From NCBI GenBank assembly GCA_010672825.2, contig JAAHFU020000005.1:1-64000 (forward strand): a stretch of 64,000 bases of DNA. The letters are read 5' to 3'. The DNA comes from Leptolyngbya sp. SIO1E4. GTDB lineage: Bacteria > Cyanobacteriota > Cyanobacteriia > Phormidesmidales > Phormidesmidaceae. Under the pieces are notes generated by a model. The model saw nothing but the letters and a program-made list of their open reading frames with translations. It did no database searches and was not told where the DNA came from. Below, one piece after another: positions 27,234 to 39,099 of this stretch. Made by a program: the position numbers and the translations under genes. Within the stretch, counting starts at the first letter, position 1, and each line of letters starts with the position of its first letter.

Positions 27234-29564
27234 CTAGCTCCCCTTCTCTCCCTCTTCCACCGGCAACAGCAGCGTCTCCTCAATATGCTGCCGCGTGGCT
27301 TTGGTGACATAGCAATCGCTGTTGAGGCAATCGACCAGCAGTTGGTTGGCGTCGTAATACTGCAGCAGCTTTTCGATTTGGACGTTGTTAAACTGCCAGT
27401 CGTGACCGATATTGCGATGCTCTATCATCGCGGAGCGTAACGCTGCTGCCCAAGCCTCTCCCTTCTCTTGCCACCAGGTTCGAAACGCCTCTCGATCATC
27501 GCGCCTGGGCATCTGAGCTTGCAGCGTCTCAAGTTTAAGCTTTAAGTCGGGATCACACCGGTCTGTTTTCTGAATGGCGAGGGAGAGGGAGAGGGCGAGG
27601 GAGAGGGCGAGGTCGAGGGCGTGGGAGAGGGCGAGGTCGCGGGCGAGGGAGAGGGCGAGGTCGAGGGCGTGGGAGAGGGCGAGGTCGAGGTCGAGGTCGA
27701 GGGCGAGGTCGCGGTCGAGGTCGAGGTCGCGGTCGAGGTCGAGGTCGAGGGCGCGGGCGAGGGCGAGGGAGAGGGCGCGGGCGAGGGCGCGGGCGAGGGA
27801 GAGGGCGCGGGCGAGGTAAAAGACGCGAACCGCCACGGGTTTATAGGGAGCTGCGACTGACTGAGATTTCTCATTCACCCAAGTCAGCAACGCTTGCAGG
27901 TGAGGTTCATCTGCCATCAGCAGGTCAATCTGTTGCTTCATCAGCACCAGCAAATCATCCGCTTCAGGCAGCATCCCCACCGCCAGCAAAAAGATTTCGC
28001 GATAGCGCGGCTCAGTGATGTGGGTGGCTAAATTCCCCAGGGTCAGCGAGATCTGGGCCGTTGGGCGGGTAATCTGCCTGGCGGTGAAATATTCCTGAAA
28101 GGTCAGGTGAGAAAAGGAATAAATGCCCCTGGCTCGCTCTACCAGTAAGCCGTGCTGCGCTTCGATAGATTTGAGCACGGCTTCACTGTCAAGCTGTAGC
28201 GCGTCTTCATCGTCGCTGGCGCCGGGCAAATTGCGGATGTAGTTAATGATGTGCTGCTCGACAACTTTTTGCTTAAAGAAGTAGTCTCCTTTTTCAAAGG
28301 TCTGAAAGGCGAGCTGGCTCAGCAGGTCTTCTTTACGCTTCAGGGACAGCTTCTTATAGACCTGATCGCGTTCAATGTTGCGCTTGGCGTCCCATTTTTT
28401 CAGCAGCACATCCAGCCCTTCTTTGTACAGTTCGGATCGATTGGCAGGGAAGTCATTACCCTCCCCAAATACCAGGCACAGCAGTGTCAGCAGCAATGGA
28501 TTGGTCGCGAGTTCTTGTATGGGCTTATTAGCCTTTAGCCGCTGGATAAAGTTCTGGCCCTTTTCTGGATCTTGTTTGGCTGCGAACCACTTCGTGGCAA
28601 ATTCGGCAATCTGCTCTGGGTTAAAGTCAGCCACCTCCACTTCGGTAAATTGCTGAAAGGTATATTCCCGCGCTGCAATGCGGCAGGTCATAACAAACTG
28701 ACAGCTGCGAAATTGCTGGGTAAAATCTTTGATTTCTTGCAGAATGCGGTTATGGTCGTCTGCCTGCACTTCATCCAGGCCATCCAGCAGCACCAGCGCC
28801 CGCCCCTGCTCTAAAACGTCAGCTAGCAAGTCAACCGCTTTTACCTGGCAAGCCTGCCACTGTTTCACAATAAAAGCCTGTACTCCAGGCTGACCCTTGG
28901 CTTCGGCAAATTCCTTCAGCGTTATAAACACCGGTACCCGATGGGCCTGAAACTCACCCTGGTTGCACAGCGTGGCCAGTCGCTTCATAAATGTGGTCTT
29001 GCCCGCCCCCGGCTTGCCCAAAATTATCAGCTTGTCGTAGCGCTCAACTGCTTCTAACCCCGGCACTCGCTCATGGCGCACCTGCCCCAGCGTGAAGCGG
29101 TCAAAGTTTTCCAGGTTGCAGTCCTGCAGCAGCTCATCTATGGCGAGCCGTCGTCGCCCTGAGAGCTTTTCCAAAATGTTGACGCTGGTGTAAATGTCGC
29201 CGATGCCAATGGGCTGCTCCATATCCAGCACGCGCATGGTGCCGCAGCGATGGCGAATGTCGGCTTTGACCTTGTTGCGAACACCTTGAACGATCGCCTC
29301 AATATCGGTTTTAGTTCGCGTGGGTTTGATGCTAGCGCTCAGCGGTTTTGAGCCAGCAATGGCTTCCCAGTCCAGCCCCAGGGCTTTGCAAAAGCTGACA
29401 AATAGCTTTTTGCTCACAGCTTTGCCCGAGCAAAATTTCACCGCTGGCTGACGGCTACAGTCGCAATGATTCGCCAAATCCTCACGGCTCCATTCCTTTT
29501 CGGTGAGGGCTCGATTGATTTGTTCAATGCCATCGGGGGTTGCCGTTAGCGATCGCACTGCCAT
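27234..29564 (-). CDS. NACHT-domain STAND NTPase with N-terminal HTH-like domain
   Basis: 776 residues from ATG 29564, which has GAGG about 6 bases upstream. Residues 1-70 resemble the small HTH-like domain of cyanobacterial NACHT proteins (EWSREDLANHCDCSRQPAVK). The NACHT ATPase follows: Walker A LGKPGAGKTTFMKR, Walker B ALVLLDGLDEV, a sensor Arg in FVMTCRIAAREY, and the helical part RSELYKEGLDVLLKKW. A low-complexity alternating Leu-X region (about residues 583-662) is encoded by a hexanucleotide microsatellite. The end (HDWQFNNVQIEKLLQYYDAN, LLVDCLNSDCYVTKATRQHI) matches the C-terminal helical domain often found in cyanobacterial NACHT proteins. Bacterial NACHT proteins include NLR-like anti-phage sensors; a defence role is inferred. 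Confidence 0.88.
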   Translation of the reverse strand: MAVRSLTATPDGIEQINRALTEKEWSREDLANHCDCSRQPAVKFCSGKAVSKKLFVSFCKALGLDWEAIAGSKPLSASIKPTRTKTDIEAIVQGVRNKVKADIRHRCGTMRVLDMEQPIGIGDIYTSVNILEKLSGRRRLAIDELLQDCNLENFDRFTLGQVRHERVPGLEAVERYDKLIILGKPGAGKTTFMKRLATLCNQGEFQAHRVPVFITLKEFAEAKGQPGVQAFIVKQWQACQVKAVDLLADVLEQGRALVLLDGLDEVQADDHNRILQEIKDFTQQFRSCQFVMTCRIAAREYTFQQFTEVEVADFNPEQIAEFATKWFAAKQDPEKGQNFIQRLKANKPIQELATNPLLLTLLCLVFGEGNDFPANRSELYKEGLDVLLKKWDAKRNIERDQVYKKLSLKRKEDLLSQLAFQTFEKGDYFFKQKVVEQHIINYIRNLPGASDDEDALQLDSEAVLKSIEAQHGLLVERARGIYSFSHLTFQEYFTARQITRPTAQISLTLGNLATHITEPRYREIFLLAVGMLPEADDLLVLMKQQIDLLMADEPHLQALLTWVNEKSQSVAAPYKPVAVRVFYLARALSLARALARALSLALARALDLDLDRDLDLDRDLALDLDLDLALSHALDLALSLARDLALSHALDLALSLALSLSLAIQKTDRCDPDLKLKLETLQAQMPRRDDREAFRTWWQEKGEAWAAALRSAMIEHRNIGHDWQFNNVQIEKLLQYYDANQLLVDCLNSDCYVTKATRQHIEETLLLPVEEGEKGS
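27577..27816 (-). repeat. hexanucleotide microsatellite inside the NACHT gene
   Basis: 240 bases made of 40 hexamers of the form G(A/C)GNGG such as GCGAGG, GAGAGG, GTCGAG shifts, uninterrupted in phase. On the coding strand every second codon is CTC (Leu), with GCC, TCC, GAC, CGC or CAC between, giving runs like LDLDLDRDLDL and ARALARALSLALARALD. The length is a multiple of three and six, so slippage by whole hexamers keeps the frame. Confidence 0.9.
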
Positions 29565-29714
29565 GCCATCCTCACATCGCCTGCCGACAATTCTACTCAA
29601 CCCAACTCATCCCCAAGTCATCCATAACTCATATGTTTTGAAACCCCTTTGGGGACTGAACTTTCGCGATTTTTTGCAGACCATGAACCCATCCAACCCA
29701 TCGCGGAGTTCACT

Positions 29715-35316: not shown

Positions 35317-38300
35317 TTAGGGAGCTGAGGGAAGCTGCAGCTCGATACCCACTTTGCTGCCTAAATCGATGACATCATCAGCAAATTCATTTGCTGCCGC
35401 AACACTACCAGCAATCATTGAGGCAGCTGTGACTAGAGCTGCCAAGCGCTTTTTCAGGCGAGGAATGTTGCGCTGTTCTGCTGTTTTTTTTATTTCTTCC
35501 TCAACGTCCTCGATATCGATGATGATGTCTTCTTGCACGTCCTGAGGAAATTGCGTGGCGGTTTGACGCAGATTATTGATGATTTTTAGGAGGTCAGCGG
35601 TGCTAGTGCCGCTGGTTTGAGTGAAGTTAGAAGCCGTGACTTGAGCGCTGTCTTTGGCTTCATTGACTAGATTGGCGATATTGGCTCTTTGATTATTATT
35701 CGTGATTTCAGTCACGGGTTGATAGTCTCCTTGCTTTTGTTGATTGGTGTTGTAAATGTTGTTGACAATCTCAATACGACGGCTTAAGCCTTCTTCCTGG
35801 AACCATCTCTCTTCTCTATTTGCAAAACGTTTATGCTGACGGCTTTTAAGGGATTCGTAGCCGTTGAGGAGTTGGCGCAGATTGACTTTGATGCGGAGCT
35901 TGCCAATGGGATAGTCCAATTCGCCCATTGCCTCTAGGCCCAGGAGTTCCTGATAGTCCAACGGGGGATGATCAGGATAACCGGGGACAGGGACCCATTC
36001 GGTGACTTCCAGATCGGCAAAACTGCGGTGGATTTTGGTGAAGGTGTCGCGGATGAGGGAGAGAAAGACTCGGCGAGTGGGTTCTCGACCGCTGACAGAA
36101 ATGAAAATCTTTTTATCTTCAGGGTCAGCTCTGATGCGGGCAATGTTGTAAATCTCGTCACCTTCCCGATACTCCAGCATGACGCCGCTACGCCAGCAAG
36201 TCTGGTTATGAATTTTCTCGTGGGCAAGGACGATGAACCGTGACAGAACACTCTCTGGCAGGATGCGGTAATGGTATTGAAATTCTAAGGTGTCGCCTCG
36301 CAGACTGGTGTCGTCTGGTTCGTCCTTGGGCAATAGGCCCGGAATCAGGAATTTGGGGTTGGGACAGTTGGGTAAGGCAAAGCAGAGCTGAAATTCTTGC
36401 ATGAGTTCAGTGAGGTAGCGATGGCGATCGACTGGGTAGCGCTCTGGGCTGAGCACACGGCTGAGGTCGTCATCGATAAGGATGCCTTTGGATTGGGTTT
36501 TGAGGGTTTCGTCGCTGAGGAGGGCATAGATGCCTTGGGTGACCCAGTCAGGGTTGAGGACGTTGGTGCTTTGCAAGAAGGCATGGTCGCGAAAGTTAAG
36601 CACCAAGCCCAGGTTGTGGAGCAAATTGATGAGCTGCTCTTGATTGGGCTCTTCGGAAATTTTGTTTTGATGGCAGATGCCGATGTATTCGTTGTAGGTA
36701 ATGAAGTCTTTCTCCATGGCTTCAAGCTGTTCTTTCACCTGAAACCAGGAGAGGGGCAGTAGGTTATAGACATCATGGAGCTTACCTACCTCCCGAGTGA
36801 TAGCAGCACGGAGATCTTGGATGCCATCTCCAGTTTGGCAAGAGGTTTCGAGGATGGCGCAAATGTTGGGATATTTTTGCTGCAGAGCTTTGCGGTTGAT
36901 GTCGAGGGGCTGTTCGTCTTTTTTGTTGCCGACGATGATGACGGGGGAAGCCCCACCAAAGCTCTGAATTAACTTGAGCCAGTATTCGATACGGTTTTCG
37001 TCTTCGCTGGTGCGGCAGTTGCAGACCAGCAGATAAAGGCTGCGCTTGGTGAGAAAAAACTGATGGGTAGCGTGATAAATCTCTTGCCCACCAAAGTCCC
37101 AGACATTGAGGCGCACATCTTTAGCGTTGACGTGGACGCCCCACTTGTAGACTTTGAGGCCATCGGTTTGGGGCTCGTTGGCATTGAAGCTACCGTCAAT
37201 TAACTGTCTAACTAGGGAGGTTTTACCCACACTGCCTTGACCGACCAGTAAGAGTTTTGCTTCGTTGAGGGGTTTTACTTCGTCACTGTGAAGTTTGTTC
37301 AAATAATTGAAGATGGCCTCAATTGGGCCAGGATCATCACTGAGTTTAGTTGGCCCTAGAACTTCAGGAGAAATTGGAAGCGGGTTGCGGCGCAAATCCA
37401 GAGTTTTAAGGTTAGGTAGATTTTCTAGCCAATTGGGGCAGGCTTCAATTTCATTATTCTCAAGATCTAGTTTTTCGAGACTTTTGAGTTGACCAATGCA
37501 GGCTGGAATCTCGCTGATTTGATTGCTAGAGAGATAAAGTGTTGTCAGGTTAGAGAGTTGACCAATGCAGGCTGGAATCTCGCTGATTTGATTTCTATAG
37601 AGATAAAGTGTTGTCAGGTTAGAGAGTTGACCAATGCAGGCTGGAATCTCGCTGATTTGATTGCTATAGAGATAAAGTGTTGTCAGGTTAGAGAGTTGAC
37701 CAATGCAGGCCGGAATCTCGCTGATTTGATTGCTAGAGAGATAAAGTGTTGTCAGGTTAGAGAGTTGACCAATGCAGGCCGGAATCTCGCTGATTTGATT
37801 GCTAGAGAGATAAAGTTCTGTCAGGTTAGAGAGTTGACCAATGCAGGCCGGAATCTCGCTGATTTGATTGCTAGAGAGAGAAAGTGTTGTCAGGTTAGAG
37901 AGCTGACCAATGCAGGCTGGAATCTCACTGATTTGATTGCTATCGAGAGAAAGTGTTGTCAGGTTAGAGAGTTGACCAATGCAGGCTGGAATCTCGCTGA
38001 TTTGATTTCTATAGAGATAAAGTGTTGTCAGGTTAGAGAGTTGACCAATGCAGGCTGGAATCTCACTGATTTGATTGCTATCAAGAGAAAGTGTTGTCAG
38101 GTTAGAGAGTTGACCAATGCAGGCTGGAATCTCGCTGATTTGATTGCTAGAGAGAGAAAGTGTTGTCAGGTTAGAGAGTTGACCAATGCAGGCTGGAATC
38201 TCACTGATTTGATTGCTAGAGAGATAAAGTTCTGTCAGGTTGGAGAGTTGACCAATGCAGGCTGGAATCTCGCTGATTTGATTGCTATCGAGATAAAGTT

Positions 38301-39099
38301 CTGTCAGGTTAGAGAGTTGACCAATGCAGGCTGGAATCTCGCTGATTTGATTGCTATCGAGATAAAGTTCTGTCAGGTTAGAGAGTTGACCAATGCAGAC
38401 TGGAATCTCGCTGATTTGATTTCTATAGAGAGAAAGTGTTGTCAGGTTAGAGAGTTGACCAATGCAGACTGGAATCTCACTGATTTGATTGCTAGAGAGA
38501 GAAAGTGTTGTCAGGTTAGAGAGTTGACCAATGCAGGCTGGAATCTCGCTGATTTGATTGCTAGAGAGATAAAGTGTTGTCAGGTTAGAGAGTTGACCAA
38601 TGCAGACTGGAATCTCACTGATTTGATTGCTATCGAGATAAAGTTCTGTCAGGTTAGAGAGTTGACCAATGCAGGCTGGAATCTCGCTGATTTGATTGCT
38701 ATCGAGAGAAAGTGTTGTCAGGTTAGAGAGTTGACCAATGCAGGCTGGAATACTAGCTAAGTTTGTGCTTACGCACCATACAGATGTGAGAGAAACAAGT
38801 TGAAATGCACTCTGCGGGATTTTTCCCAGGGGATTGCCACTCAGATCAAGATGTTTGAGGTTTTTGAGATTCGATAATTCTGTAGGCAGCGTTGTCAGTG
38901 CATTAGTGGTCAATAACGGCTGAACCTTACTATCAACCACCTCCCATTTCTCTACCCGCCCAAGTATGAGAGTCTCAAGCTGGGTTAATTTACCAATCTC
39001 CGGCGGTAATTCCGTTAACCCCTGTCCCGAGAGATCCAGCTCCGTCCAGCCCTCTTCCGCCGCCTGGTCAATCAGCGCCAACAACTCATCCTGCGTCAT
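35317..39099 (-). CDS. LRR-Roc-COR (ROCO family) protein
   Basis: 1260 residues from ATG 39099. Order: capping LRRs (about 1-118), 18 near-identical 23-residue LRRs (119-532), one diverged LRR (533-555), then a Roc GTPase with P-loop LLLVGQGSVGKTS (about 620), switch II WDFGGQE and the base motif VGNKKD. A COR domain follows (about 770-930). The C-terminus is a predicted helical region ending with a hydrophobic segment (LAALVTAASMIAGSVAAANE). Bacterial ROCO proteins are GTP-regulated dimers related to human LRRK2; their ligands are mostly unknown. The repeat homogeneity is extreme (see findings). The gene stands alone with no obvious partner. Confidence 0.93.
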   Translation of the reverse strand: MTQDELLALIDQAAEEGWTELDLSGQGLTELPPEIGKLTQLETLILGRVEKWEVVDSKVQPLLTTNALTTLPTELSNLKNLKHLDLSGNPLGKIPQSAFQLVSLTSVWCVSTNLASIPACIGQLSNLTTLSLDSNQISEIPACIGQLSNLTELYLDSNQISEIPVCIGQLSNLTTLYLSSNQISEIPACIGQLSNLTTLSLSSNQISEIPVCIGQLSNLTTLSLYRNQISEIPVCIGQLSNLTELYLDSNQISEIPACIGQLSNLTELYLDSNQISEIPACIGQLSNLTELYLSSNQISEIPACIGQLSNLTTLSLSSNQISEIPACIGQLSNLTTLSLDSNQISEIPACIGQLSNLTTLYLYRNQISEIPACIGQLSNLTTLSLDSNQISEIPACIGQLSNLTTLSLSSNQISEIPACIGQLSNLTELYLSSNQISEIPACIGQLSNLTTLYLSSNQISEIPACIGQLSNLTTLYLYSNQISEIPACIGQLSNLTTLYLYRNQISEIPACIGQLSNLTTLYLSSNQISEIPACIGQLKSLEKLDLENNEIEACPNWLENLPNLKTLDLRRNPLPISPEVLGPTKLSDDPGPIEAIFNYLNKLHSDEVKPLNEAKLLLVGQGSVGKTSLVRQLIDGSFNANEPQTDGLKVYKWGVHVNAKDVRLNVWDFGGQEIYHATHQFFLTKRSLYLLVCNCRTSEDENRIEYWLKLIQSFGGASPVIIVGNKKDEQPLDINRKALQQKYPNICAILETSCQTGDGIQDLRAAITREVGKLHDVYNLLPLSWFQVKEQLEAMEKDFITYNEYIGICHQNKISEEPNQEQLINLLHNLGLVLNFRDHAFLQSTNVLNPDWVTQGIYALLSDETLKTQSKGILIDDDLSRVLSPERYPVDRHRYLTELMQEFQLCFALPNCPNPKFLIPGLLPKDEPDDTSLRGDTLEFQYHYRILPESVLSRFIVLAHEKIHNQTCWRSGVMLEYREGDEIYNIARIRADPEDKKIFISVSGREPTRRVFLSLIRDTFTKIHRSFADLEVTEWVPVPGYPDHPPLDYQELLGLEAMGELDYPIGKLRIKVNLRQLLNGYESLKSRQHKRFANREERWFQEEGLSRRIEIVNNIYNTNQQKQGDYQPVTEITNNNQRANIANLVNEAKDSAQVTASNFTQTSGTSTADLLKIINNLRQTATQFPQDVQEDIIIDIEDVEEEIKKTAEQRNIPRLKKRLAALVTAASMIAGSVAAANEFADDVIDLGSKVGIELQLPSAP
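37504..38745 (-). repeat. 18 tandem 69-bp LRR-coding units
   Basis: Each 69-bp unit encodes one 23-residue LRR with the frame (A/V)CIGQLSNLT followed by four variable residues and NQISEIP. The units are almost identical at DNA level; differences cluster at the codons for the exposed beta-strand positions, at Ala/Val of the first residue, and at a few silent sites. Total 1242 bases, an exact multiple of 69. Confidence 0.95.

Follow-up and report, generated by a model that had tools for sequence, protein, structure and literature searches.

What keeps a long array of leucine-rich repeats (LRRs) uniform in its scaffold yet diverse on its surface, and what might such an array recognize? This question is raised by a gene of the cyanobacterium Leptolyngbya sp. 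SIO1E4. It lies in the window analysed here, the first 64,000 nucleotides of contig JAAHFU020000005.1. The gene occupies positions 35317-39099 of the (-) strand and encodes an LRR-Roc-COR (Roco) protein of 1260 aa, as indicated by its open reading frame (ORF), Pfam and a structural match to CtRoco from Chlorobium tepidum (6hlu). The Parkinson's-disease protein LRRK2 is a relative of this cyanobacterial protein. With a probability of roughly two thirds, we consider it a modular intracellular immune-type receptor composed of a variable LRR sensor, a conserved GTPase switch and an exchangeable effector.

The array comprises 18 in-phase units of 69 bp, each encoding 23 aa (37510-38751, (-) strand). 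Tandem Repeats Finder reports a period of 69, 18.3 copies and 94% matches, and its score of 2196 puts the array beyond chance. On average, two units are 94.2% identical in DNA and 90.5% in protein; the 18 units comprise 17 different DNA sequences, which encode 10 different protein sequences. The consensus is LxxLxLxxNxLxxIPxxIxxLxx. Four residues, at positions 3 (T/E), 5 (S/Y), 7 (D/S/Y) and 8 (S/R), vary in 8 combinations. These concave residues are 52% identical between units, compared to 98.5% for the scaffold. The array contains 12 variable sites, 7 nonsynonymous and 5 silent. Concave codons hold six of the former and none of the latter (Fisher p = 0.015). Since three units differ by an Ala/Val exchange at scaffold position 16 and the five silent sites are located in the scaffold, protein variation is nearly, but not strictly, confined to the concave face. 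An earlier note on this DNA had described 18 near-identical 23-residue LRRs (at 37504-38745, i.e. in the other phase) as combinations of a few cassettes, varying exclusively at exposed positions in otherwise almost invariant DNA. Unit number and cassettes were confirmed. The restriction to exposed positions holds apart from the Ala/Val exchange, and the near-invariance of the DNA apart from the silent sites.

The AlphaFold model covers 1095 residues. Its LRR part is one continuous solenoid, with a confidence score (pLDDT) of 93-98 across the array. Modelled beta-strands span LRR positions 3-5 (residues 129-131 in the first unit). In the known geometry of LRRs, positions 3 and 5 protrude from the concave sheet, with 7 and 8 coming after it. 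In the model, the variable positions are found in or beside the concave beta-strand, in agreement with the earlier note. The four-gamete rule is broken among array sites, even among sites 6 bp apart. Therefore, the cassettes either recombine or recur by mutation within a unit. A weak lag-6 excess (p = 0.029, uncorrected) is not claimed as higher-order periodicity. An antisense frame of 423 aa (37489-38760, (+) strand) extends across the array; it results from a 69-bp period without stops and is, therefore, not evidence of a gene.

Is this distribution of variation peculiar to one gene? A family set of 75 loci with Roc-COR modules at least 57% identical was compiled. Most relatives were retrieved via the Roc-COR module rather than the repeats; one search used the array DNA. 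Top matches among named genomes were cyanobacterial. For selection tests, 42 arrays with at least five units each and a mean identity of at least 80% were used. Nonsynonymous (pN) and synonymous (pS) differences between units of one array were determined as pairwise Nei-Gojobori counts. In the SIO1E4 array, pN is 0.276 at concave positions, 0.031 at other non-motif positions and 0 at motif positions, with a scaffold pS of 0.096 and no silent change inside concave codons. The corresponding means over the 42 arrays are 0.375, 0.080 and 0.014, with a pS of 0.132. Concave pN exceeds pN at other non-motif positions in all 42 arrays, i.e. variation is not spread evenly over scaffold and surface. It averages about 2.8 times pS and surpasses pS in 41 of 42 arrays (sign test p = 2e-11, arrays counted as replicates though some are related). 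In an earlier run with more distant Roco proteins added, concave pN was higher than scaffold pN in 49 of 49 cases. Silent change among codons for the same residue amounts to 0.127 at concave positions and 0.128 elsewhere. Because silent change is not raised in concave codons, the excess points to diversifying selection and not to a mutation hotspot. At locus L214 (G155:C1:1-3900), the 11 units show no nucleotide changes except in the four concave codons. Altogether, the substitution pattern points to diversifying selection at four concave positions in Roco family arrays.

Two side observations concern L214. It is located close to the start of the single-contig genome G155, and the upstream end of the G155 Roco gene contains a dispersed repeat (L214:100-297) of which complete or partial copies lie at many sites of G155.

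How stable are the arrays over time? In close orthologues, the caps and Roc-COR are conserved and the array is not. Unit order was assessed by aligning concave residues unit by unit and comparing the best result with that obtained after shuffling one array. In 37 pairs whose Roc-COR modules are 92.8-98.2% identical, the order of concave units is scarcely above that of shuffled arrays (mean z 0.76). Array length usually differs, too, between orthologues with 93-98% identical Roc-COR, and among loci with complete N-termini LRR counts range from about 5 to 25. L183 and L184 illustrate the turnover: Both have 13 units, and their DNA is 95.9% identical in Roc-COR and 93.4% in the N-cap. Between units of the same ordinal number, 210/247 scaffold residues are identical, but only 11/52 concave ones. 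No unit has its set of four concave residues repeated in the other array. Thus, between species, relatives carry reshuffled and not identical arrays, and neither of the two outcomes that the earlier note had named as refuting its proposal was observed. Whole-unit transfer between species was rejected, as none of 436 distinct 69-bp units is common to different loci. No plasmid-borne homologue with more than 60% identity was found. L195 carries a six-unit block duplication. Together with the four-gamete violations within units of the SIO1E4 array, such block duplications suggest unequal crossing-over and either short-tract conversion or recurrent mutation. We only tentatively propose that cyanobacteria own a fast recombination-driven receptor repertoire with interchangeable effectors, whose arrays would be rewritten between, perhaps even within, strains over very short times. 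In this view, the concave face would be a recognition surface that evolves, and the effector would determine the response.

The array is embedded in a complete Roco architecture. It is preceded by an N-terminal helix and diverged capping LRRs that are not homogenised (38752-39099, (-) strand, as are all following features of the gene; modelled helix 3-16, then strands) and followed by a diverged 19th LRR (IPACIGQLKSLEKLDLENNEIEA, 37441-37509), the beginning of the C-terminal cap. Pfam LRRs (LRR_4/LRR_8) span approximately residues 65-600. The Roc GTPase domain (aa 615-728, 36916-37257; PF08477, 5.4e-31) has all GTPase motifs intact, among them the P-loop GQGSVGKTS, DFGGQE and NKKD. Directly after Roc, COR-A (aa 782-923, 9.7e-42) and COR-B (aa 936-1080, 1.6e-32), both exceeding the Pfam cut-off, form the dimerisation module (35860-36756). 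An intact Roc followed immediately by COR identifies the protein as a member of the Roco family. Its sequence relatives in the PDB are 4wnr, 3dpu and 6hlu, and the LRR-Roc-COR structure of CtRoco (6hlu) is also the top structural match (E 8e-45). Roc-COR was modelled with lower confidence than the LRR part. The proposal of the earlier note, a modular concave surface diversified on a homogenised scaffold and joined to a Roc-COR switch, is supported. A STAND domain (NACHT or NB-ARC) was not found by Pfam, which sets the protein apart from the NOD-like receptors (NLRs). NCBIfam identities as type III effector or Leptospira protein were rejected as LRR cross-matches far under the cut-off. PADLOC did not recognize the Roco protein itself, and a paper search for PDC-M14, the family of its weak match to the C-terminal tail, yielded nothing relevant.

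The C-terminal module (35317-35814) consists of a low-confidence linker and a predicted four-helix bundle with one Ala-rich hydrophobic helix. This tail comprises 165 aa, with the bundle in its second half and a pLDDT of about 90 over most of tail residues 72-154. For the bundle, only generic four-helix matches were obtained (Foldseek E >0.7, best VIA-align Z 11.9). Since helical bundles can reach this Z without kinship, no fold family was assigned. The same tail ends pentapeptide-repeat proteins in related genomes. In orthologues, other C-termini are found: a TIR domain at 8 loci (TIR_2, 1.5e-13), a CHAT domain at 2 loci (3.1e-9) and a short tail with a QHGxGDNxxGDxxxGxK-like motif at 21 loci. 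The Roco orthologues with TIR in place of the helical tail are L188, L190, L194, L195, L196, L199, L200 and L161, from the G356 genus, probably Nostoc. On a tree of the 75 Roc-COR sequences, the C-terminal class changes at least 23 times, a rough figure, as the class 'other' is mixed and includes truncated or unassigned tails. L183 with a helical tail and L196 with TIR are still 94.9% identical in Roc-COR.

At the motif-class loci examined (L017, L029, L034, L035, L042), Roco is followed by two conserved small genes. The first encodes DUF6883 where tested (L034, L042). The second encodes DUF4926 where tested (L017, L034, L042); its product has a Gly-Asp motif related to that of Roco, followed by the helical tail which SIO1E4 has fused to Roco itself. 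At L037, a small protein with an N-terminal Gly-Asp motif is encoded directly downstream of Roco. At the related loci L017, L029, L034, L037 and L042, a GDN-type motif is present both at the Roco C-terminus and in a downstream protein. This might recall bacterial amyloid-signalling (BASS/Bell) pairs, in which a receptor and an effector encoded beside it have one short motif in common; in SIO1E4, the tail is fused instead. From these sequences, it is possible that Roco and its neighbour form a receptor-effector pair via the motif. The occurrence of the helical tail either fused to Roco or on a partner protein suggests that it is an output module. It is a putative effector or adaptor; a membrane-directed or killing activity is a guess based on the hydrophobic helix.

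The genomic surroundings include another gene of receptor-like type, a NACHT gene (27234-29600, (-) strand) at a distance of about 6 kb from Roco. It carries approximately 40 copies of the hexamer GGCGAG (27576-27816) encoding a low-complexity Leu/Ala/Ser/Asp/Arg linker that joins its NACHT domain to NCH2. Elsewhere, the SIO1E4 genome has no fewer than five other loci with Roc, and LRRs are present at most of these. L002, L003, L004, L005 and L007 are LRR-Roc paralogues. L003 comprises ten homogenised LRR units with concave-biased variation as in the main array.

How could such a receptor operate? The long LRR solenoid would be the sensor. Its units would be kept near-identical by unequal crossing-over or gene conversion, with recombination as the probable homogenising process, and diversifying selection would keep altering four concave side chains per unit. 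Roc-COR would serve as conserved GTPase and dimerisation switch. In CtRoco, a large GTP-driven movement occurs around the LRR-Roc linker (PMC11052575), and a switch between monomer and dimer was described (PMC11052575; PMC6337361). Similarly, a ligand bound along the concave face might shift the nucleotide and the monomer-dimer state via the LRR-Roc hinge. The hinge movement may expose or cluster the exchangeable C-terminal module, which would be the output: the four-helix tail here, TIR, CHAT or the Gly-Asp motif in orthologues. The Gly-Asp motif plausibly recruits a partner protein. If the concave residues keep changing, the ligand presumably changes as well. This could be a fast-changing invader or non-self molecule, phage proteins being obvious candidates, and the output could be defence or cell death. 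The evolutionary pattern, concave diversification and array turnover, is established with high confidence. An immune or non-self-recognition role is proposed with moderate confidence, any particular ligand only with low confidence.

Several points weigh against this receptor model. The Roco gene is alone among housekeeping genes, outside any recognised defence island. For its tail, PADLOC yields no more than a weak match (PDC-M14B). The nearest orthologues (80% Roc-COR identity) have less homogenised arrays. The measure of selection is a pairwise Nei-Gojobori count on related units and not a codon model. All close pairs are between species, and some belong to draft assemblies in which repeats may be miscounted. 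For SIO1E4, one genome represents the genus, and no isolate of the same species is available for comparison.

Could the changing ligand come from kin, a host or a partner instead of a phage? An allorecognition or symbiosis receptor would fit the many carriers that are filamentous cyanobacteria. Likewise, heterokaryon incompatibility is the function of fungal NLRs whose repeats evolve in the same manner (PMC4986451, PMC12222747). Such a role is inseparable from defence by sequence alone and constitutes a special case of the immune-type receptor, not its opposite. We regard it as unlikely.

Does the array need a selected function at all? A few LRRs with slight differences might recently have been duplicated, with concave residues varying because they are free and without selection for diversity. 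Indeed, few positions in any LRR are less constrained than the x residues of LxxLxLxxN, and the SIO1E4 array alone offers just its 12 variable sites. Free positions, however, predict a pN close to pS, which does not match the excess in 41 of the 42 arrays. Non-motif scaffold positions are in principle free as well, yet lie below pS in 29/42 arrays. Furthermore, ordinary amplification predicts that orthologues have a common array order, which they do not have. This explanation is, therefore, improbable.

Targeted hypermutation, e.g. by a diversity-generating retroelement writing concave codons, is less probable still. It would account for variation in fixed codons, as exemplified by L214. A is among the variants at 108/114 variable second bases of concave codons, and two RVT_1 genes are present in the SIO1E4 genome (C5:244206-244835 and C6:171798-172436), neither of them close to the array. 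Nevertheless, a template repeat was not detected: In the whole-genome search, the array DNA had no second copy in SIO1E4 or G155. Diversity in concave codons amounts to 0.33-0.51 at first and second bases and to an unremarkable 0.12-0.19 at third bases, which are no more variable than others. A is absent at 46/133 variable first bases, and its excess agrees with the choice of hydrophilic side chains (Asp, Asn, His, Tyr). With the RVT_1 search and the array search, template-driven mutation is largely refuted for SIO1E4 and G155. That an assembler collapsed or shuffled the repeats can practically be disregarded: Although some orthologue genomes are drafts, the same pattern appears in the complete or few-contig genomes G155, G397, G417 and G418, the SIO1E4 genome is assembled in 12 contigs, and misassembly is unable to put changes mainly in four codons.

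Which known systems does the preferred immune-type receptor resemble? Lamprey variable lymphocyte receptors are secreted or surface proteins that are somatically assembled from donor cassettes. They share the LRR modules and the varied concave face with the Roco array. The earlier note had drawn this analogy; in the sense of programmed somatic assembly it is not supported, as neither donor cassettes nor a template were found elsewhere in the SIO1E4 genome or in G155. The LRR-ROCO genes of brown algae are better analogues, and so are those fungal NLRs whose internal repeats are highly conserved.

Brown-algal LRR-ROCO proteins are candidate immune receptors whose 23-aa units are reshuffled between genes and are under positive selection at unit sites 14, 16, 18 and 19 on the concave face (Teng et al., 2024, PMC11378527; see also Zambounis et al., 2012, as cited there). 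They correspond to the cyanobacterial family in LRR-ROC-COR order, 23-residue units and reshuffling. Counted by distance from the conserved Asn, the algal sites equal cyanobacterial positions 3, 5, 7 and 8. In contrast, the algae encode every LRR in an exon of its own (72 bp, with phase-2 introns) and splice alternatively; the cyanobacterial array is intronless. The exchange of C-terminal effectors found in cyanobacteria is not described for algae in PMC11378527. Of the features of the hypervariable algal type, diversifying selection at four positions (by pairwise counts) and changes in unit number and order were found here, one exon per LRR was not. Since the gene is a single uninterrupted bacterial ORF, the protein works like the algal type without being a member.

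In fungal NLRs, such as HET-D/HET-E and others, near-identical repeats, repeat-number polymorphism and positive selection at ligand-facing positions are found (PMC4986451, PMC12222747). The mode of evolution is the same as in the cyanobacterial Roco array; the repeats are WD, ANK or TPR instead of LRR, and a STAND NTPase takes the place of Roc-COR. Among prokaryotes, Kaur et al. (2021) predicted AP-GTPase (LRR-GTPase-COR) conflict systems with 'rapidly evolving' N-terminal LRRs and a C-terminal slot for at least 24 different domains (PMC8195603). Immunity against invaders is likewise a prediction there. The SIO1E4 family shows the same combination of LRR, GTPase, COR and a variable C-terminal domain. 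Homogenisation, selection restricted to the concave face and lost unit order are not reported in the portion of PMC8195603 covered and are added here. CtRoco and LRRK2 share domain order and fold with the SIO1E4 protein. CtRoco is a model for GTP-driven monomerisation, and the CtRoco literature, as far as covered, does not describe a hypervariable array.

Thus, this kind of receptor is already known from brown-algal ROCOs, fungal NLRs and the predictions of Kaur et al. (2021). A bacterial demonstration of homogenised, concave-diversified arrays that are reshuffled between near-identical orthologues was not found in a partial literature search. Very little is known about the role of bacterial and archaeal Roco proteins (PMC6337361), and Roco research has been driven mainly by LRRK2. 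The quantitative data presented here indicate that a bacterial Roco family follows the evolutionary mode of an immune receptor, with a diversified sensor face, a conserved switch and an interchangeable output. The same four selected positions in brown-algal ROCOs suggest that the use of LRR-Roc-COR proteins in recognition is either old or convergent. If cyanobacteria do own the fast receptor repertoire proposed above, the family would be a prokaryotic counterpart of the hypervariable receptors of plants, algae and fungi. It is also a tractable system to find out what Roco LRRs bind and how their arrays stay uniform in the scaffold yet diverse on the surface.

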